Below are positions 16,449 through 24,983 of a stretch of 25,341 nucleotides of DNA, piece after piece. The DNA comes from a virus, in IMG/VR virus record IMGVR_UViG_3300006749_000111, positions 1 through 25,341 of that record; one strand, given 5' to 3'. The notes under the pieces were generated by a model. It ran no database searches and was not told the DNA's origin. It worked only from the letters and a program-made list of their open reading frames with translations. Position 1 is the stretch's first letter, and each line of letters opens with the position of its first letter. Position numbers and translations under genes: made by a program.

Positions 16449-16615
16449 TAACTAAAAAACCACGCTCTTCTTGTGGACTCCTCTTGAGTGTCTTGTGTAT
16501 ATTGAGTGTTCAATTGTTGTATCATTTCCTCTAATTGTCGAATTAGTTCAGCAGACTGTTGAGCATCATACTCAGGTCTAGGATCAGGAAATCTTTGTAA
16601 TGTTAATTTTGCCAT
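16448..16615 (-). CDS. 55-residue coiled-coil protein between two virion genes
   Basis: A short gene of 55 codons plus stop that fits exactly between its neighbours: its ATG (16613-16615) overlaps the stop of the 608-residue gene, and its TAA (16448-16450) overlaps the start of the 118-residue gene, both as TAATG. The product starts MAKLTLQRFPDPRPEYDAQQ and continues as a Gln/Glu/Leu-rich amphipathic helix (SAELIRQLEEMIQQLN), likely a small coiled coil, ending RRAWFFS. It is Gln-rich like nearby virion proteins. Perfect junctions on both sides are strong support for coding; a tail-assembly chaperone or structural linker are guesses. Confidence 0.75.
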   Translation of the reverse strand: MAKLTLQRFPDPRPEYDAQQSAELIRQLEEMIQQLNTQYTQDTQEESTRRAWFFS

Positions 16616-18441
16616 TATCTTCTACCATCAGGTTGTATATCAAAACGTTGTGTTCCTAATCTCCAAGCGGTGCCTGTTGTATTAGAGACAACATTGACTG
16701 TGAATTCTCTACCTCTTCCTCGTAAGCTTACAAACTCTGTTGTGTCAGTAAAGGTCGCTGTCTTAATAGTGCTTGTTGTATTGTTTGGATAATACTTAAA
16801 TTCTAATTTCATATTTAAAGTACCTTCTTGATTTTGAATATCAGGTATAAGTTTTTGTACAAAAAGAATATCATTACCTTCACCTATTTCTACAGATCCT
16901 GATTTCACAAAAGCAGTCATGGCTTCACCGTCTGCATTATTTCCTGTCTCATGTAAAAACATTTGAGTGGCACCATCAGTTAAACCAGAGATAACTTCAT
17001 TGTTGGCCGTGGTCGTTGGTAAGTAGTCCGAGGCTACAGGATTATCGTAAACTTCTCTATCAATCCAAGTTGTTCTATCTAGTGTTCCTGTCCACCAAGT
17101 TTGCTCTAGATAGTTATAAGCCACTACTGCATTAATTGTGTCAGATCCTGTTCTAGGATAAAACCATAATACTTCATTGTACTCACCGTTGTGACCTACG
17201 AAAGCATTTTCAGATCCTGTTATATTAATATTGTCAAAAACAAACTGTTCCACGGTACATGGTAATTTTTTAACTGTACCATCAAAAAGATAAAAAGAAT
17301 CTTGCGACATCCAATAAGCAACACCGTTCAAATCAAGTCCTGCGTGACTACCAATAATTCCACAGTTTTGACCTAATTGTCGTAAACCAAAAGTAAAAGG
17401 AGGACCAATAAACTGCATTGAGTGTAATGATGTATCTGTCCATACAAGTATTTGACCTCTTGATCGCTCTGCTGCCACGATCCGTGATCCGTCAGCAATT
17501 CTTAATGAGCCAGCAGTATTTTCTGCTGTAGGTTGATACGTGGTAATATCCTCTTGATCCGAAAATCTTATTAGTAAATCATCTTGCGAACCTATAGTTC
17601 CAATTGTGTTTTCTGTTCCCATAAAAAGTAAATGTCTATCAGGCGTTGAAACTAAACTTATTCTCGATGCGGTTGGTGCACCTGATATAGCAGCGGCTCT
17701 TGTGCTTACCCCTGTTGATGTGTCCCACCTGAAAGCACCACCATTTAAAACTGTTGCAATTAAATCCTCACCAAAATTATCTAGCGACCATTGTCTCGCT
17801 TCCAAAGTAACATTTGAAGTAGTAGAAGGAGTGCCCCATGTACTAGAACCCCATGAGTCAGTGCCCCAACCAAAAGCTGAAGTAGATGTTTCAGGTCCAA
17901 TTGATATCTGATATTTAGCATTGCCTGATCCACCACCACTTGCTGTTGATCCTGAAGCAGCAGCGGTTGTTGTTACAACATAAGCATTGTTATTAGCTAC
18001 TGATGTAACTTCAAATTCTTTATTCATATCTAAACCATCAATAGCTGAGAAGGAATCAAAGGTTACAAAATCTCCTTTTTGTGCACCATGAGATGTGTCA
18101 GTCACAACAACAGATGTGGTTGCATTTGTAGTAAAGGGATTAGTTAAAGCTTGTGTTTCTCTAATAGGGGTAATGTCATAAGCTAATCCTTCTTCTATAA
18201 CATAAAGCTTTCTATCAGTACCAACAGCGTTGTATCGTGTGCCATCTAAAGCTACCCAAGCATGTTGATCACGAGCGACACCCACCAAGGTTGTGGAGAT
18301 AAATTTCTCCCATCCTTTAATTTTCTGCGGTAATCCTTGAAAAAAACGTACGTTATCACCGTCTGTCCACTTGCCTTCGCCTGTGTAATCGGTGACTTCT
18401 TTATTAATACCTGGTGCTGGTCTAAAATTTACTAATGGCAT
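16615..18441 (-). CDS. Probable tail / packaged-DNA stabilisation protein (608 aa)
   Basis: A 608-residue beta-rich structural protein. The N-terminus (MPLVNFRPAPGINKEVTDYT then WTDGDNVRFFQGLPQKIKGW) is a hallmark of a phage tail/neck family that I know from marine phage genomes. The repeated pattern of short strands with W-x-D/G turns through the chain (AWVALDGTRYNAVGTDRKLY; LLFMGTENTIGTIG; ILVWTDTSLHSMQF) suggests a beta-propeller, as in the P22 gp10 stabilisation protein. A W-G-rich stretch lies near residues 190-203 (FGWGTDSWGSSTWG). It precedes the small virion genes and ejection block and follows the glycosyltransferase. The structural role is fairly sure; equivalence to P22 gp10 is an inference. 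Confidence 0.65.
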   Translation of the reverse strand: MPLVNFRPAPGINKEVTDYTGEGKWTDGDNVRFFQGLPQKIKGWEKFISTTLVGVARDQHAWVALDGTRYNAVGTDRKLYVIEEGLAYDITPIRETQALTNPFTTNATTSVVVTDTSHGAQKGDFVTFDSFSAIDGLDMNKEFEVTSVANNNAYVVTTTAAASGSTASGGGSGNAKYQISIGPETSTSAFGWGTDSWGSSTWGTPSTTSNVTLEARQWSLDNFGEDLIATVLNGGAFRWDTSTGVSTRAAAISGAPTASRISLVSTPDRHLLFMGTENTIGTIGSQDDLLIRFSDQEDITTYQPTAENTAGSLRIADGSRIVAAERSRGQILVWTDTSLHSMQFIGPPFTFGLRQLGQNCGIIGSHAGLDLNGVAYWMSQDSFYLFDGTVKKLPCTVEQFVFDNINITGSENAFVGHNGEYNEVLWFYPRTGSDTINAVVAYNYLEQTWWTGTLDRTTWIDREVYDNPVASDYLPTTTANNEVISGLTDGATQMFLHETGNNADGEAMTAFVKSGSVEIGEGNDILFVQKLIPDIQNQEGTLNMKLEFKYYPNNTTSTIKTATFTDTTEFVSLRGRGREFTVNVVSNTTGTAWRLGTQRFDIQPDGRR

Positions 18442-18459
18442 GACGCCAATATATATAAA

Positions 18460-19275
18460 TTACTCTTTTTTAGCAACTAAAGACCCAACATGACCTTTAA
18501 ATGCTCTATTACCAAAGTGAGTTAAAGGCATCGCTAAGTCAGCCCAAATCTGCCCGCCACACTCCTGCCATAGACGAGAGAAGTAGTAATCTTCGGATAG
18601 ATATCTTATTTGTGGTTGACCTTCTTTGGTTTTAGTGTTGTATGGTCCAACAGCAAACAAGTCATAACAATTATCAGACCTATAAGCTCCACCGTTAACA
18701 ATTTGATCAGACTCATATTTTCTTTCAGGAAACTTCTTCATCATAGTTCTAAATACTTCTCTTTTCACAAGCATCATACCAGTAGCTGCTTCTTGCACAG
18801 GAAAAAAACCTCCCTCACCTTTTAAATTTAAAGGGTCATCAAAGTTTACATTATACCCTAAGGCTCTAGCCTCTATTTCATCAGGGGTAGCATTTGGATT
18901 TTCTTTTAAAATGTCTTTAATCTTTTCAAGATATAAATGTTTTCTGGGATAAATTCCACAAGCTATATCTTTATCTACACAAAGTAATCTTTGAATATTT
19001 TGCCAAGTGAAACCTATGTCAGCATCTATAAATAAAAGATGTGTAGCAACAAAATCTTTATCGTCCATCATCATAGAGACTATGGTATTTCGAGCACGAG
19101 TAATTAAACTTTCATTACCCATTGTTTGTATTCTCATTGCAATATTGTTAGCTTGAGTCCAAGACTGTAACTCCAACAAACCATGTAGTGTTGATTCAGT
19201 AAGTAATCCACCATACATTGGCATTCCTAAAAATATTTTAAAATTTTGGTCTTTTAGTTCTTCTGGTTTAATCAT
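18460..19275 (-). CDS. GT-A-fold glycosyltransferase (family 2-like)
   Basis: A 271-residue nucleotide-sugar-dependent glycosyltransferase. Evidence: an N-terminal strand and loop KIFLGMPMYGG (13-23), IDADIGF carrying the D84-A-D86 metal/nucleotide site (83-89), the acceptor-side ATGMMLVKREVF segment (164-175), SEDYYFSRLW with the probable catalytic acids E228-D229 (227-236), and a C-terminal LTHFGNRAFKGH with a metal-binding His (251-262). No membrane segment, so it acts in the cytoplasm. The ribosome binding site (AAAGGA) lies 7-10 nt upstream of the ATG. It directly follows the five oxygenase-like genes, so it may add sugar to a group created by one of them, or glycosylate DNA, virion protein or surface polysaccharide; the acceptor cannot be read from sequence. 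Confidence 0.85.
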   Translation of the reverse strand: MIKPEELKDQNFKIFLGMPMYGGLLTESTLHGLLELQSWTQANNIAMRIQTMGNESLITRARNTIVSMMMDDKDFVATHLLFIDADIGFTWQNIQRLLCVDKDIACGIYPRKHLYLEKIKDILKENPNATPDEIEARALGYNVNFDDPLNLKGEGGFFPVQEAATGMMLVKREVFRTMMKKFPERKYESDQIVNGGAYRSDNCYDLFAVGPYNTKTKEGQPQIRYLSEDYYFSRLWQECGGQIWADLAMPLTHFGNRAFKGHVGSLVAKKE

Positions 19276-19307
19276 TTTGTTTTTCCTTTATTATGTTAGT
19301 AAATATC

Positions 19308-19955
19308 CTATTTCTTGCTTTCTAAGAAGTACACTGCGTTATATCTCCAAGTGTCACTACAATATTTTTTATGATCTTCTATGTATCCTCCATGTGGTAG
19401 TTTACCATTAAATATAACACATCTATTAAATTTAGCGGGAATAATATCAAACTTGTTATTTGATATATCACATCGTATATCAATTTCTTCTTCAATTAAA
19501 TCTTGTGGCATATCTTCATATATTGCTGTTCCTCCAGAACATTTTTTATCTAAATAAATAAGTATATTAAAGCTATCGTCTATGTGAGGCCTAAATTGAA
19601 TATTTGAAGAAGGTACATCAATCCATTGAAATATATTAAATCTTATCGAGTCACAATAATGATCGTGCAAATTTAACATGTGCTTTAATGTATTAATTGT
19701 CTTATGTTCTTTATCTACACCATAATTAGTCAAAGGTATTTTTAATCTACAATCATAATATTTTTTAAAATTTTTAGTGTCTTTATGTAATTTCCAATTA
19801 GGAACCCAGGTTTCTTTTAACATCTTATATATTTGTTCACCATTTTTATAAAAATTATCAATATATATGTATTCATGATCTCCAACTTTATCCTTCGCAA
19901 TTTCTAAGCTGTCGTTTATTTCATATAAATCGTGTGTTAAAAAAGGAGTGGTCAT
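19308..19955 (-). CDS. 2OG-Fe(II) oxygenase-like protein, DUF6445 type (array member 5)
   Basis: 215 residues from the ATG at 19953-19955, which I prefer because it overlaps the preceding stop as TAATG; an upstream ATG at 19976 would add seven residues inside the previous gene. The double-stranded beta-helix motifs are clear: RPHIDDS with H124-x-D126, LIYLDKKCSGGTAIYED, then FNGKLPHGG with distal H188 and DTWRYNAVYF with R204 for 2-oxoglutarate. The architecture matches the DUF6445-like branch. Members of the superfamily hydroxylate or otherwise oxidise protein, nucleic acid or small substrates; the substrate here is unknown. The gene is very AT-rich (about 15% GC in the line at 19741), unlike the glycosyltransferase that follows. 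Confidence 0.8.
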   Translation of the reverse strand: MTTPFLTHDLYEINDSLEIAKDKVGDHEYIYIDNFYKNGEQIYKMLKETWVPNWKLHKDTKNFKKYYDCRLKIPLTNYGVDKEHKTINTLKHMLNLHDHYCDSIRFNIFQWIDVPSSNIQFRPHIDDSFNILIYLDKKCSGGTAIYEDMPQDLIEEEIDIRCDISNNKFDIIPAKFNRCVIFNGKLPHGGYIEDHKKYCSDTWRYNAVYFLESKK

Positions 19956-20509
19956 TAAAAAAACATTCCGTTCCATTTTGAAACAAACAAATAATTGAAA
20001 GCTAAACTTATTCTTAGATTATCGTTTAAATTAGGCGATACACTATGGGGGCAATCATCATCGAAAATAATTATATCAGCAAACTTTGGTTTTATGTTTG
20101 TTTGCAAATTAGATTTATGTTTAGACTTTAAATTTAAATTTGAGTTATTATGAGTTAAGTAAACAATACCACTTAAATATTTTTTATATTCATCACTGTG
20201 TGTATGCTCTTCTTGGTAAAAATCTTTTTCATAAATATTTATCCAAGAATTAAAGATATAACCATTATAAAAACTATTTTTTAAATGCATAAAGTTTTCA
20301 ATGTGACTTAATATATTTAATTTTAAATCATGTAATTCAATACAGTTTAAAATATTATCAGTTATGTTAAATGAGGTTCTTATTTTACAATTCCAACTTT
20401 GTTCTTTGTAAGAGTTTTTTGTTTTTTCAACAAAGTTAAAAGATTTTTCACATATCTCATCATTGATTTTTGAGTGATAGTAATCTTCTTTATATAATAT
20501 TTTTAACAT
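19955..20509 (-). CDS. 2OG-Fe(II) oxygenase-like protein with H-x-H metal motif (array member 4)
   Basis: 184 residues. The C-terminal half has the cupin/double-stranded beta-helix pattern of the TIGR02466-like oxygenases: SWINIYEKDFYQEEHTHS (88-105), YLSGIVYLT (111-119), PKFADIIIFDDDCPHSVSP (141-159) and NLRISLAFNY (164-173). Candidate metal ligands are H102-x-H104 and H155, with R166 as the 2-oxoglutarate arginine. The usual acidic residue of H-x-D is absent, so catalysis is uncertain. It overlaps the upstream oxygenase gene by 20 nt and the next by 1 nt. Extreme AT content (17-18% GC in two 60-base lines) sets it apart from the tail genes. No strong ribosome binding site is visible, consistent with coupled translation. 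Confidence 0.7.
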   Translation of the reverse strand: MLKILYKEDYYHSKINDEICEKSFNFVEKTKNSYKEQSWNCKIRTSFNITDNILNCIELHDLKLNILSHIENFMHLKNSFYNGYIFNSWINIYEKDFYQEEHTHSDEYKKYLSGIVYLTHNNSNLNLKSKHKSNLQTNIKPKFADIIIFDDDCPHSVSPNLNDNLRISLAFNYLFVSKWNGMFF

Positions 20510-21035
20510 TAAAATCTAAATTTATTGTTTGTCTATTTCCTTCTGATTGAGGAAAAGTGCCATGAAAAACATGAGCGGGAAAAAAGAATAAATCTCCTAT
20601 TTTTGGTTGAAATCTAAAATACCTTAATTCGTTATTTTTGTTTCTTAATATAAAAAACAAATCTCCAGACAAATTTTTGTCAATATTACTCGGTATATCT
20701 AAAAAAGTAACACTAGATAAATGATTTGTTGTTTCAGGATTGTGTTGATGAATTTCATGATAACCGTATTTTTCACCGTAAACAGTCCAAGCAGATAAAA
20801 GTTCTAGAGAAATTTCTTTCAAATGTTTTAATATTATTGTTTGAATGTTTTCACTTATGTTTTTGATTTTGTTAAAATCATCAAAAAAATATTGTTTTGA
20901 ATTATCACCATGAGTGCTTATGTTTTCTTTTTCTTGATTTAAGTTTAAAACTACAGAATCAACTTGTATCTTGAAATCTTTAACTTCAATAGAATCTTTG
21001 ATAATCCAATCTTTAAGGTTACTTACCTTGATCAT
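20490..21035 (-). CDS. 2OG-Fe(II) oxygenase-like protein with H-x-H metal motif (array member 3)
   Basis: 181 residues. The C-terminal domain shows AWTVYGEKYGYHEIHQHN (82-99), SSVTFLDIP (107-115), SGDLFFIL (123-130), PKIGDLFFFPAHVFHGTFP (144-162) and RQTINLDF (168-175). This is the strand order and spacing of TIGR02466-like 2OG-Fe(II) oxygenases. Probable ligands are H96, H98 and H158 with R168. As in its neighbour, His replaces the acidic ligand of H-x-D. The N-terminal 70 residues are lysine- and isoleucine-rich with no motif. It overlaps the upstream gene by 17 nt and the downstream by 20 nt. Composition is AT-rich (about 23% GC in the line at 20881). Similar layout suggests a duplication with member 4, but the sequences have diverged widely. 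Confidence 0.7.
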   Translation of the reverse strand: MIKVSNLKDWIIKDSIEVKDFKIQVDSVVLNLNQEKENISTHGDNSKQYFFDDFNKIKNISENIQTIILKHLKEISLELLSAWTVYGEKYGYHEIHQHNPETTNHLSSVTFLDIPSNIDKNLSGDLFFILRNKNNELRYFRFQPKIGDLFFFPAHVFHGTFPQSEGNRQTINLDFNVKNII

Positions 21036-21648
21036 CTTTTACTGATGGCATTCCTAACATAGATCTTTTATCCCATTTCTCTTGAGCATGAGGTCCCTCT
21101 TTATTTACATAATGAAAAAAACAAGTAATAAAATGATCATGTGTACAGAATTCTCTCCAATGTACAGTTTGATCTGTTTGACCTTGAAATAACACAGCAT
21201 TATTTCTAATCATGTCATACTTATAATTAATTTTCACAGGCTCTAATTTTTTATCTATGTTAAAATATTTGTATTCTGAGGTTGGATCTAGCTCTCCAAT
21301 GTATAGTGGATAAGGTTTATTAACAGGGAATTCACCTAAAGCTAAAGCCACAGTATATTCACAAGATGGTCTATCGGTGTGTATTTCTAAGTCAGATCCT
21401 TTGTCATAAACTCTCATGAACGAAAACGTTGGCCATAAGCTTTTACCAACATGCTTTTCAACTACAGATGTAGATAAATCTAATATTGTTTCCATTAATG
21501 GGTCTCCGTAAGAATATGCCATGGCATTTACGGTATTATCAAAATAAGTATCTCTACAAAGAGTCTTAGTTATTGCATACTGATTAACAACAGTAATTAA
21601 ACTATCGGGTAAAAATTTTTCAATAAATATTGGTTTTATTTGATCCAT
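21019..21648 (-). CDS. 2OG-Fe(II) oxygenase-like protein with HWRE motif (array member 2)
   Basis: 209 residues from the ATG at 21646-21648 (MDQIKPIFIEKFLPD). I choose this start because the longer reading to 21747 would add 33 residues translated inside the upstream gene, while this one overlaps by only 13 nt. Motifs: FSFMRVYDKGSDLEIHTDRP with H90-x-D92, YTVALALGE, NAVLFQGQTDQTVHWRE with H163 and R165, and the closing ITCFFHYV strand. The H-x-D...HWRE...FFHYV pattern is seen in a group of phage and bacterial prolyl-4-hydroxylase-like proteins. The substrate is unknown. Base composition (about 37% GC in the line at 21361) matches the phage average, unlike members 3-5. Confidence 0.8.
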   Translation of the reverse strand: MDQIKPIFIEKFLPDSLITVVNQYAITKTLCRDTYFDNTVNAMAYSYGDPLMETILDLSTSVVEKHVGKSLWPTFSFMRVYDKGSDLEIHTDRPSCEYTVALALGEFPVNKPYPLYIGELDPTSEYKYFNIDKKLEPVKINYKYDMIRNNAVLFQGQTDQTVHWREFCTHDHFITCFFHYVNKEGPHAQEKWDKRSMLGMPSVKDDQGK

Positions 21649-22193
21649 GATATTATAGCGTATCTCGTTCCTTTTGTTACGGGTAAAACTGTATGAGGGT
21701 ACATAAAATTGGATGGGAACATAATGCAATCCCCTATGTTTTGACAATACTTTGTTTTTTGACCATTTAAATCAAATTCAAAAAGACCACCTTCATAATC
21801 TGTATTTAAAGAAATTGAACAACTTAAAACTCTTGTGGGGGTGTGTCTTGAAAAATCAGTATGATAAGTGTAACCAACATTGTATTGATTACTTTGGTAT
21901 TTTAAAATTTGTAATTCTGAAACTTCTTCAGCATCCATGTAAGGAAACTTTTCTTTGTAAATTTTTCTAGCAGCATGAATATAAGACACTAATCTTTGTG
22001 TAATTAATCTTTTTCCAAAAGTAGTTTGATCAGTAACTATATCATGTTGTTCACAGTTTCTGGTTGATTTAAGTCTTTCTCCAGAATAACCGCCAGTCAC
22101 TGTTGCTTCTGAATAATTATTAAAATAGGCAATAACTTTTTCGCAAAGCACTCTTGGCACTAATTTTTTAATCTCTATGATGTTAGATTGCAC
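21636..22193 (-). CDS. 2OG-Fe(II) oxygenase, prolyl-4-hydroxylase-like (array member 1)
   Basis: 185 residues with a complete textbook site: GYTYHTDFSRH with H111-x-D113, RVLSCSISLN, YEGGLFEF, GDCIMFPSNFMYPHTVLP with H167, and GTRYAIISWI with R177 that binds 2-oxoglutarate. The fold and order match the P4H/PKHD-type hydroxylases. The best-supported start is GTG at 22191-22193, one base after the preceding TAG; no in-frame ATG exists before residue 86, and no clear ribosome binding site is visible. It is the first and most canonical member of the five-gene array. Protein, DNA-base or free amino-acid hydroxylation are all possible; nothing in the sequence picks one. Confidence 0.87.
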   Translation of the reverse strand: MQSNIIEIKKLVPRVLCEKVIAYFNNYSEATVTGGYSGERLKSTRNCEQHDIVTDQTTFGKRLITQRLVSYIHAARKIYKEKFPYMDAEEVSELQILKYQSNQYNVGYTYHTDFSRHTPTRVLSCSISLNTDYEGGLFEFDLNGQKTKYCQNIGDCIMFPSNFMYPHTVLPVTKGTRYAIISWIK

Positions 22194-22194
22194 T

Positions 22195-22659
22195 CTAGTA
22201 GGTAATACCGTTTGCAGATAAATAATTCACTCTTGCAGTATTTGCTGCTGTTATGGCAGCAGAATCATCATCTGCATTTGCATCGTCATGATCATCGTAA
22301 GTTGTTTGCCAAGTTTTTTCAGCTTCCGCTCTAATCACTACGTTAGTGACCCATTGAGGAAGATCAGATTGTGAAGCGTATGAGGTATTTTCTGAATTAT
22401 CAGTGCTTTCTAGGATGTATGTCCAAGTGCCTCCATTGTTTTTACATTGTAAAGCGTGTGTTGTAGATGGCAACTCTGTATGAGATCTTACATTTAAATA
22501 AACTTTATCATCAATATAAACATCTGATTCAGTGTTACCACTTCCTGAGGCAGGTCCATCATTACCGACAATATTTCCTGCTTGATCTCTATGAACATCA
22601 GAATCAAATATAATTGTTAGTCTAGTATTAATGGTTGTATTATTTATCGTTATTGACAT
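22195..22659 (-). CDS. Hypothetical virion-associated protein (154 aa)
   Basis: The function is not recognised. The 154-residue product is Thr/Asn/Asp-rich. It opens with a beta pattern (MSITINNTTINTRLTIIFDS) and contains WTYILESTDNSENTSYASQS and WVTNVVIRAEAEKTWQTTYD. An unusually acidic stretch (DDHDDANADDDSAA) precedes the final strand ending in ANGITY. A W-x-x-x-x-V-x-x pattern and the acid-rich tail recall small fibre-associated or fibre-assembly proteins, but this is weak. It overlaps the gene upstream by 20 nt, has an AAGGT site before the ATG, and lies between the fibre and the oxygenases. Confidence 0.6.
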   Translation of the reverse strand: MSITINNTTINTRLTIIFDSDVHRDQAGNIVGNDGPASGSGNTESDVYIDDKVYLNVRSHTELPSTTHALQCKNNGGTWTYILESTDNSENTSYASQSDLPQWVTNVVIRAEAEKTWQTTYDDHDDANADDDSAAITAANTARVNYLSANGITY

Positions 22660-23086
22660 TTTTTTTACCTTTTTTACCTTCCTTAATTTTTATCTTATTA
22701 TTGCTTAATTGTCTAATAGTTTCATTGCCCCATTCTGGATTGTCTTCCTCTTGAGCTTTTTGATGATTTCCTAATAATTCAAATATTGATGCAGTGTTTT
22801 CCATAGCTTTCTTAGCACCTTCACTTGAACTTAAAACTTTTTGCATGACATTATTAGAGTGCACCATCTCATTTCTAAAAGACTCTGTGGCTGCTTTAAC
22901 TCCAACAGTGGCCTTAGAATTTTCAACTAAAAGCAAAGGAAGCCAAGCTATTGAACATCCCCATTCTTGCACGTCTTGTCCTGTTTGTGGATGAGTCCCT
23001 TGAAGCATGTTATACCAAATACATTGATGTTTCATACACTTCTTATTAAGAAGAGGACATTTACCGTCCGGGTCAAATATCGGCAT
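22640..23086 (-). CDS. Cysteine-containing hypothetical protein behind the tail fibre
   Basis: 148 residues. The N-terminus holds four cysteines: C10 (KCPLLNKKC), C17, C22 (HQCIWYNMLQG) and C44 (EWGCSIAWLPLLLVE). Their spacing and the flanking CPLL...C...CIWY and W-G-C-S-I-A-W-L-P pattern suggest one bound metal, zinc or Fe-S. The rest is a helical, charged domain ending in a Lys/Asn-rich tail (KIKIKEGKKGKKNVNNDK). The ATG overlaps the fibre stop as TAATG, so it is co-translated with the fibre. I recognise the pattern from marine phage genomes but know no function. Roles in fibre maturation or as a metal-binding adaptor are guesses. Confidence 0.65.
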   Translation of the reverse strand: MPIFDPDGKCPLLNKKCMKHQCIWYNMLQGTHPQTGQDVQEWGCSIAWLPLLLVENSKATVGVKAATESFRNEMVHSNNVMQKVLSSSEGAKKAMENTASIFELLGNHQKAQEEDNPEWGNETIRQLSNNKIKIKEGKKGKKNVNNDK

Positions 23087-24147
23087 TAATCTTTTGCGGC
23101 TATAATTACGTTTGCGTATTTAACATCAATAGCAGAAACTGTTGCATCAACATCTGCCGAGGCACTTGATAAACTACCACTAAATGGGTGAGAGTGGGAT
23201 CCGCCACCACCTGTGCCACCTGTGCTACCACCACCTGATGGATTACCTGGTGCGTTTCTTGGAGCACCTACTGGTCTTGCACCATTAGGGTGTGAATGTG
23301 AAGGTATTTGAGGTGTTGATAAAGTTGTATCCCCTACAGTACCACTAAGAGAACCAGTGACAGGAGCAGAATCTTGCACCGCTGTGCTATTAGTCCCAGT
23401 AAGTAAAGATGAGAAAAAAGATGTGCTACCACCTGTTCCTCCACCTGTACCAGTGACAACGGCCATAACAGCATTTCCTAATGCTGCGGTGGTATCTTGA
23501 GTCCAACCTGTTGGAGCTGAGGCTTGATAGAAAACTTGTTTTGTGCCTGAAGGAAAAGGTTCAACGCCTGTAAGGTTTGAACCACTACCAACAAAAGTTG
23601 TAGCGGTAACAGCACCGTTTGATCTTAAGATAATATTTCCAGAGCCAGCAGTTAAATCTTGACCAGCGGTTACTGTACCGCCAGCGTCCATGGTAACAGC
23701 GCCTTTGAAAGCTGTAGCTCCTAGTTTGTCAACTGCATTATAAATTTTAAAATTAGCTGTACCCTCACAATAAACATGTGAGTATGCTCCTTGTGCTATA
23801 ACAAAACCATTTGCTGTATGTCCTGTTGCAGCTATGGTAAGAGTTTGAGAACCTGATGTATTGTTAAAGAAAACATAATCGCTTTCAACGGCAGGAATAA
23901 ATACTACGATATCGCCCGTTAAGGCTCCTGTGAGTTCAATTACTTTATTCGCTGATTCAGCGGTTGGATCTGCATCCGCAGTTGAGAGAGTAATATTAGC
24001 AGAACCTGCAACAGATTTAGCTAAATAACCACCACCAAAGGCATCTAAAACATCCAAATTATTATTGGTATTTGTACCCCAGGTATTGGCGTTAGCCCCT
24101 GTTTCCATCTTTTCTAATTTGAATCTACTTGTATATGTACTTGCCAT
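23086..24147 (-). CDS. Tail fibre / tail collar protein with paired H-S-H motifs
   Basis: A 353-residue receptor-binding-type fibre. The N-terminus (MASTYTSRFKLEKMETGANA then TWGTNTNNNLDVLDAF) is an attachment module common in marine phage fibres. The middle has Ala/Thr/Gly-rich beta segments. From PFPSGTKQVFYQASAPTGWT (197-216) the C-terminal half is a collar-type domain with H284-S-H286 and H318-S-H320 flanking a Gly/Pro-rich loop. H-x-H pairs of this kind bind metal ions along the axis in T4 gp12-like trimers. It ends VKYANVIIAAKD, the usual closing strand of the domain. It is probably a trimeric tail tip that sets host range. Confidence 0.85.
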   Translation of the reverse strand: MASTYTSRFKLEKMETGANANTWGTNTNNNLDVLDAFGGGYLAKSVAGSANITLSTADADPTAESANKVIELTGALTGDIVVFIPAVESDYVFFNNTSGSQTLTIAATGHTANGFVIAQGAYSHVYCEGTANFKIYNAVDKLGATAFKGAVTMDAGGTVTAGQDLTAGSGNIILRSNGAVTATTFVGSGSNLTGVEPFPSGTKQVFYQASAPTGWTQDTTAALGNAVMAVVTGTGGGTGGSTSFFSSLLTGTNSTAVQDSAPVTGSLSGTVGDTTLSTPQIPSHSHPNGARPVGAPRNAPGNPSGGGSTGGTGGGGSHSHPFSGSLSSASADVDATVSAIDVKYANVIIAAKD

Positions 24148-24197: not shown

Positions 24198-24983
24198 TTA
24201 TGCTGCGTCAACCTCTGTCCAAGTATTACTTGCACCTGTTACAACGTTTGCCCAAGGTGTAGCAAACGGATTTCCTGTGACTATCGATAAGTCAAGTCCT
24301 GTTACGTTAACAATAGCTCCACCCGTAGCTGTTGCTGTTCCCGCAGCAAAACTCATGGCAACTGTGGAAACACTTACAATTACACCAGTTCCTACCTCTA
24401 CTGTTTCCGTACCTAAAGCAGAAGTCATTGCAACCCCTGTAGGTTGTACAAGAGCATCTGCTGAAACTACAGGAGTCCCCAAAGCAGAAGTCATTGTCAC
24501 TGGAACAGGATCTACTTGTGTAAATGCAAATACATTAACTGCTCCAATAGCAAAATCTAATTGATCGGAAGGTGCAATAACTGCAACACTTCCCTCACCA
24601 GAAACAGTCGCTCCTGATAAAGCTACACTTACTAATTGACTATCTAAAGTAACAAGAGATGTTCCTGTTTCAGTTGTATCACCTAGAGCACTTGTCATCT
24701 CTAAGCCTGTTACAGAAACTATGACACCTGAACCTACTTCAATCGTAGGAGTGCCTAAGTCCGTGGACATCGTCACACTTGTGACGTTAGTAATAAATTC
24801 TATATTCTCATTCCATGCAAAAGATCCCCATGATCCTCTTCCCCAACCAAAATCAACTGAGGCATCTACAGTTACGGAGCCATCACTAAATGATGTACTT
24901 AAACCTGTTAATTCAACAAGTGTACTATTCTGATCTCCCCACGTACCTAGTCCCCATGTTCCATCACTCCAACCATTTGACAT
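24198..24983 (-). CDS. Repetitive W-G-rich tail/virion protein (261 aa)
   Basis: Residues 1-60 are Trp/Gly-rich: NGWSDGTWGLGTWGDQ and later FGWGRGSWGSFAWNE. From there on the protein is built of short repeats of about 24 residues with the pattern V-x-M-T/S-S-x-L-G-x-x...V-x-V (TGLEMTSALG, VPVTMTSALG, TGVAMTSALG, STVAMSFAAG), like a stack of beta strands. No cysteines, no enzyme motif. The repetitive beta architecture and its place immediately upstream of the fibre suggest a tail appendage or fibre connector. The ribosome binding site (AAAGGA) is about 11 nt before the ATG. Confidence 0.7.
   Translation of the reverse strand: MSNGWSDGTWGLGTWGDQNSTLVELTGLSTSFSDGSVTVDASVDFGWGRGSWGSFAWNENIEFITNVTSVTMSTDLGTPTIEVGSGVIVSVTGLEMTSALGDTTETGTSLVTLDSQLVSVALSGATVSGEGSVAVIAPSDQLDFAIGAVNVFAFTQVDPVPVTMTSALGTPVVSADALVQPTGVAMTSALGTETVEVGTGVIVSVSTVAMSFAAGTATATGGAIVNVTGLDLSIVTGNPFATPWANVVTGASNTWTEVDAA

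Follow-up and report, generated by a model that had tools for sequence, protein, structure and literature searches.

A variable oxygenase and glycosyltransferase cassette beside the tail fibre gene of a virus related to pelagiphages: the fibre tip as candidate substrate

Expanded sets of 2-oxoglutarate (2OG)-Fe(II) oxygenases have been described in T4-like cyanophages (Sullivan 2010, PMC3037559), among them S-CAM8 and S-SCSM1, the latter with 24 such genes (PMC9602691), and in HTVC023P-type pelagiphages, for which Wittmers et al. 2022 (PMC9599517) describe eight non-orthologous oxygenase families together with 'ferrochelatases'. A structural similarity of phage 2OG oxygenases to human EGLN3 has also been noted previously. 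The DNA analysed here, hereafter the window, is a fragment of a marine phage recorded in IMG/VR (IMGVR_UViG_3300006749_000111; 25,341 bases). Its tail genes lie on the minus strand and include five adjacent oxygenase or oxygenase-like genes (A to E) followed by a glycosyltransferase (GT) gene. We propose, with a probability of about 0.6, that this variable enzyme cassette acts on the tail fibre of the phage itself, whose tip would be hydroxylated, at proline first, and then decorated.

By its conserved flanking gene MARK, the window is related to phage DSL-LC04, to 023Pt_psg01 and to the pelagiphages HTVC023P and HTVC027P, two phages cultured on SAR11 HTCC1062 that likewise have oxygenases in the tail module; in a nucleotide search of phage records, next to nothing matched beyond this marker gene. 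The HTVC023P-type pelagiphages belong to the same phage group, and there too the oxygenases are co-located with the B family, with B next to an oxygenase, although PMC9599517 describes the two as nearby, not adjacent, and takes B to be a true ferrochelatase. Five oxygenases in a row, which the initial annotation had set against the single ones known from phages, are typical of this group rather than exceptional, and oxygenase expansions in marine phages are already published (PMC9599517, PMC9602691, PMC3037559). The six genes from A to GT are present on the minus strand at the positions given in that annotation. They lie in the tail module, as it had proposed, with tail-fibre genes on one side and a structural gene of the tail on the other, and E and GT are indeed 32 bases apart (E end 19308, GT start 19275). 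In transcription order the locus comprises Z, the fibre gene TF, Y, X, A to E, GT and MARK, then an ejection protein and large uncharacterised genes:

24198-24983, minus: gene Z, preceding TF in transcription order
23086-24147, minus: tail fibre protein TF, the proposed substrate (phrog_12796, tail fiber, 2.9e-9), co-varying with A and B
23212-23289, minus: hypervariable fibre-tip loop PNGARPVGAPRNAPGNPSGGGSTGGT (TF residues 287-312, 19% proline, between two H-x-H motifs)
22640-23086, minus: gene Y, 148 residues, co-inherited with fibre and oxygenases, no function assigned
22195-22659, minus: gene X, 154 residues, likewise co-inherited with fibre and oxygenases, no function assigned
21636-22193, minus: oxygenase A, prolyl 4-hydroxylase (P4H)/PKHD-like (PF13640, 3.7e-14; phrog_61, 2.7e-26), with H111, D113, H167 and R177
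21019-21747, minus: predicted oxygenase B (phrog_2954, 3.7e-31, mislabelled ferrochelatase), probable start ATG 21648, AlphaFold model
20490-21035, minus: oxygenase C (PF13759, phrog_81), with H96-x-H98, H158 and R168; 25% GC
19955-20509, minus: oxygenase D (PF13759/TIGR02466-like), with H102-x-H104, H155 and R166; 22% GC
19308-19976, minus: oxygenase-like E, DUF6445 (PF20043, 3.4e-7; phrog_1644/phrog_274), likely start ATG 19955; 27% GC
18460-19275, minus: GT-A glycosyltransferase GT (phrog_1574), with DxD 84-86, ED 228-229 and H253; AlphaFold model, pLDDT 91
16615-18441, minus: MARK, tail 'stabilization'/virion structural protein (phrog_3287), conserved flank and lineage marker

Association of the oxygenases with the tail fibre

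The cassette recurs in related viruses, of which hundreds of fragments were compared. Among 93 GT loci compared, some on overlapping contigs, the recurrent order is fibre, A, B, variable genes, GT and the structural gene MARK. B lies upstream of GT in 84/87 loci with enough sequence, and an oxygenase is directly adjacent in 67 of the 79 loci found via B. In the 35 long loci, where at least 4 kb of sequence is available to either side, the number of oxygenases ranges from 3 to 7, with a median of 5. B-A fusions occur in L009 and others, and B and GT, which are separate genes in the window, form one polypeptide in one relative, a B-GT fusion encoded by a single reading frame of 469 residues (L017:2086-3495). 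The conserved A-B order, these fusions and the recurrence in tens of loci bear out the suggestion of a dedicated unit; in the survey of related loci the genes do recur as a set, and a pattern in which they never do so was not encountered. All oxygenase matches in 14 long records fall in a stretch of some 7 kb about the tail module. Cellular genomes are nearly without B: the genomes of 84,980 species yielded 22 loci when scanned, and many of these are on short contigs from metagenomes.

The variable slots, which lie between B and GT and around MARK, contain oxygenases, DUF6065, sulfotransferase, carbamoyltransferase and cupin genes. GC content is 22-27% in C, D and E against 34-43% in GT, MARK and the fibre, which fits the expectation for imported genes. 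In close relatives, sulfotransferase (PF00685) and NodU/CmcH-type carbamoyltransferase genes occupy cassette slots (L008:3469-4260, L021:7884-8693 and L008:7492-8943). A plus-strand gene of the window at 5093-5950 matches the phage 3'-phosphoadenosine 5'-phosphosulfate (PAPS) reductase family phrog_424; since the sulfotransferases of relatives would need PAPS, a link to this gene is conceivable.

Sequence identities were compared over 42 loci. Apart from a few near-identical pairs, those pairs with 98-99% identity in MARK mostly share only 39-61% in A and 45-71% in B, with 94-98% in GT. Fibre identity tracks that of A (rho 0.81) and B (rho 0.72) far more than MARK or GT do, and GT does not track B (rho 0.21). 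The co-varying block is fibre-Y-X-A-B and takes in neither Z, which precedes it, nor GT, which follows it. X and Y lie between B and the fibre, and the B-fibre partial correlation is 0.53 after correction for X and 0.51 after correction for Y.

At the C-terminus of the fibre, LSTPxIxSHxH is followed by the hypervariable loop and then by GGGGSHSHPFSGSL. The loop occurs in 54 distinct versions with a median of 34 residues and, relative to the rest of the fibre, is enriched in Arg (7-fold), Pro (4-fold), Gln (2.7-fold) and Asn (1.5-fold). Lysyl hydroxylation by analogy with human LH3 was rejected on account of the depletion of lysine in these loops (0.37-fold). A collagen-like Gly-X-Y substrate was likewise rejected, with only 2 matches among all open reading frames then collected and none in the fibres of this group.

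Where the fibre is of another type, the locus has a glycine-rich, tip-like protein instead. Such candidate tips were picked from viral contigs only by the DNA pattern of NTGGGGGG, blind to oxygenases, which gave 74 non-redundant proteins among the matches listed; the proline figures for glycine-rich tips refer to this set. Proline was scored over the last 250 residues, and a protein was counted as oxygenase-associated when an oxygenase gene lay within 2.5 kb downstream; these thresholds were set during the analysis, not beforehand. Proline content is 7.5% with and 2.5% without a downstream oxygenase (area under the curve, AUC, 0.97; p 2e-11), and the next best positive residue is Cys (AUC 0.77). 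For the remaining proteins of these contigs, proline content is not predictive (AUC 0.40), and contig GC trends opposite to the association. The signal persists after similarity clustering (AUC 0.99; 12-16 oxygenase-associated clusters) and is stronger in the C-terminal half (0.96 vs 0.76). A separate pattern served to collect fibres of the type found in the window; among the matches listed, proline in their loops is 7.8% with and 3.4% without oxygenases (AUC 0.75; p 3e-5).

On many viral contigs (L352-L378 and others), glycine-rich tip-like proteins have the motif GN[ST]PPV[ST]PPQG in common, often as products of tandem genes that oxygenases follow. As a sole marker the motif was rejected: it separates loci 83/102 vs 27/67 but is not significant within the NTGGGGGG set. 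Proline content outperforms it as a predictor, and with motif-bearing tips removed the proline signal remains (0.99).

Families and predicted folds of the cassette enzymes

Based on Pfam analysis, A (PF13640) and both C and D (PF13759; 5.4e-9 and 1.3e-10) exceed the curated cut-offs, and E is above the cut-off of DUF6445. The residues quoted in the initial annotation are all present, its numbering of B starting from ATG 21648 and that of E from ATG 19955, both plausible starts. In the family alignments, the ligands of A are invariant in 12 relatives; B has an invariant H/D/H and HWR, with metal ligands H123, D125 and H196 and the conserved R198; C and D share an invariant H-x-H, H and R; and E (H131, D133, H195, R211) retains H/D in 18/18 relatives and the distal H in at least 90%. 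A, B and E thus have the canonical H-x-D/E...H triad, while C and D have H-x-H...H instead.

B has no match in the Pfam search of the window proteins. Its AlphaFold model (predicted local distance difference test score, pLDDT, 86; predicted template-modelling score, pTM, 0.85) has as its best PDB match the P. putida prolyl hydroxylase 4j25 (E value 8e-7), with PolD, MysH, SnoK, AlkB and many other 2OG oxygenases among the further matches; 2OG oxygenases dominate the listed best matches, which include no ferrochelatase. The ferrochelatase assignment (PHROGs phrog_2954/3531; Wittmers et al. 2022) is rejected on the ground of this fold, and B is predicted to be a 2OG-type double-stranded beta-helix oxygenase. 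In comparisons of small alignments with hhalign, A is clearly related to C and D (8e-7) and weakly to B (E value 5e-4, 32%), whereas E could be linked to neither A nor B. The oxygenase-like character of E is suggested by its DUF6445 match, its motif and iterated hidden Markov models; E is not rare, with 17 close members in the collected loci. Membership in the 2OG-oxygenase superfamily is accordingly given by Pfam for A, C and D, by predicted structure for B, and by DUF6445 and motif only for E. In agreement with the initial annotation, the five belong to several subfamilies and are not recent tandem copies. For A to E we infer 2OG- and O2-dependent catalysis.

Over window positions 19308-22193 and loci L005, L014 and L026, 2OG-oxygenase-like proteins match phrog_2954/3531 ('ferrochelatase'), phrog_274 ('DNA endonuclease V'), phrog_2297 ('DNA endonuclease') and phrog_1644 ('minor coat protein'). 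These four labels, also found in RefSeq phage records, are probably wrong.

The residues D84xD86, E228-D229 and H253 of GT are invariant in 34 sequences, and its relatives are 34-86% identical to the window protein. Both the predicted model and the alignment display the features of the GT-A class, a Rossmann-like fold with DxD. The closest PDB fold is human lysyl hydroxylase LH3 (E value 1.2e-7), which accounts for the first six matches; polypeptide GalNAc transferases come next, and GlfT2, EXTL2 and SpsA also appear. In T4-like phages, the GT homologues L247, L248 and L250 are neighbours of the sliding clamp and further replication genes, with no tail genes nearby.

Proposed pathway and alternative explanations

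In the proposed pathway, the target is the receptor-binding fibre tip, which is exposed and hypervariable. Its side chains would be hydroxylated by the oxygenases with Fe(II), O2 and 2-oxoglutarate, prolines first, with Asn and Arg as possible further targets. GT would next attach a sugar to part of the new hydroxyl groups, and in relatives a sulfotransferase or a carbamoyltransferase may cap hydroxyl groups. Oxygenases and fibre tips swapped together would diversify tip chemistry and, through it, adsorption. The generalisation that many marine phages decorate their own receptor-binding tips by combinatorial prolyl hydroxylation with glycosyl-, sulfo- and carbamoyl-transfer, swapping oxygenase sets with proline-rich hypervariable tips, is advanced tentatively, at somewhat below even odds; host range would then vary at a post-translational level in a way not known for bacterial viruses.

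Several observations weigh against tip modification. The evidence for the substrate is all correlative, and the co-variation of fibre, A and B is suggestive only, because physical linkage explains part of it. For fibres of the window's type the proline signal is weaker, with Arg and Asn also higher and Gly lower; several loci have oxygenases and no loop proline; and among oxygenase-bearing tips, within the matches listed, proline content does not scale with oxygenase number (rho 0.13). The glycine-rich proteins are candidate tips chosen by pattern, not each confirmed as a fibre tip. With H-x-H in place of H-x-D/E, the activity of C and D is uncertain. The likeness of GT to LH3 is at the fold level only (template-modelling score 0.47), the GT sequence profile having no significant match to LH3, and distant GT homologues are found beside sliding-clamp genes in T4-like phages of Sinorhizobium, Stenotrophomonas and Caulobacter. 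Sulfo- and carbamoyltransferases would equally fit modification of a glycan.

An action of the oxygenases on other virion or host proteins, with the fibre association an incidental linkage, is unlikely. It would accommodate the physical linkage of A, B, X, Y and fibre, and the P. putida P4H that is B's best fold match acts on EF-Tu, a complex with which was also matched; against it, the proline association spans unrelated tip families, and the coupling to GT is conserved, with fusions.

We consider it similarly improbable that the enzymes alter a host surface glycan (lipopolysaccharide or capsule) during infection, for instance excluding superinfecting phages. The GT, sulfotransferase, NodU/CmcH-type carbamoyltransferase and cupin genes of relatives do resemble glycan-decoration clusters, and S-CAM8 has a Nol-like carbamoyltransferase beside its oxygenases, but such a role would not predict that the oxygenases vary together with the fibre and follow the proline content of the tip, and the genes lie inside the virion structural module.

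DNA hypermodification, in which the oxygenases would hydroxylate a base or methyl group for glycosylation by GT, as in phage TET/5-hydroxymethylcytosine systems, is highly unlikely. The sliding-clamp neighbourhood of GT homologues in the T4-like phages and the AlkB-family structures among the fold matches of B would suit it, but the oxygenase matches in the 14 long records are confined to the tail module. In 17 records, thymidylate synthase (PF00303) had no match and C5-methyltransferase (PF00145) occurs in 3; TET/JBP (PF12851) was found in 0/17, a result uninformative by itself, as no control genome matched either. Of the substrates offered by the initial annotation, the evidence favours a virion protein, here the fibre tip, and does not support DNA.

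The role as auxiliary metabolic genes that appears in published proposals (Sullivan et al. 2010, PMC3037559; the accessible part of Wittmers et al. 2022, PMC9599517), with the draw on 2-oxoglutarate steering host nitrogen or iron metabolism and B a heme-related ferrochelatase, is scarcely credible given the predicted oxygenase fold of B and the misfit between a bulk 2OG sink and several divergent oxygenases per locus that are confined to the tail module and linked to fibre composition.

Marine phages commonly carry 2OG-Fe(II) oxygenase genes that lack an explanation, and fibre-tip prolines as a predicted substrate make the question addressable by mass spectrometry on cultured phages. If tip modification is correct, there would be a chemical layer missed by sequence-based prediction of phage-host binding. 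The widely copied ferrochelatase annotation would need correction, as probably would the labels 'endonuclease' and 'minor coat protein'.

Comparison with known systems

Human LH3 (PLOD3) hydroxylates lysines and itself adds sugar to the resulting hydroxylysine, and Mimivirus L230 similarly couples a 2OG-Fe(II) hydroxylase with a glycosyltransferase acting on the new hydroxyl group. The fusion of B to GT in L017 resembles this arrangement; LH3 differs in that it acts on collagen lysines, whereas the candidate loops are lysine-poor and a search for collagen repeats found none in the group's fibres. In eukaryotes (Skp1 of Dictyostelium and the hydroxyproline-rich glycoproteins of plants), prolyl hydroxylation is followed by attachment of a sugar to hydroxyproline, although on cytosolic or wall proteins rather than virion adhesins.

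Among phages, the gp38 polyglycine adhesins of T2-type phages (PMC12892980), with a glycine-rich tip and hypervariable receptor-binding loops, resemble the alternative tips by composition only, and their description includes no oxygenase cassette. In mycobacteriophages, phage-encoded glycosyltransferases are thought to modify virion proteins; as far as the accessible part of PMC11256854 goes, no hydroxylation step is involved and the capsid is the proposed substrate. The T4-like cyanophages have the same Pfam families as the window, and S-CAM8 has an O-B pair as well as several oxygenases close to its tail-fibre genes, but these phages are myoviruses, the function proposed for their oxygenases is nitrogen metabolism or DNA repair, and no glycosyltransferase is annotated in the oxygenase run of S-CAM8. 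The accessible portion of PMC9599517 contains no link of the oxygenases to fibre or GT. A search of the open literature, subscription literature lying outside its scope, found nothing tying phage 2OG oxygenases to tail fibres, tip proline or a hydroxylase-glycosyltransferase pathway. While oxygenase expansions in marine phages were already known, the link to the fibre and the correction of the ferrochelatase assignment appear to be new.

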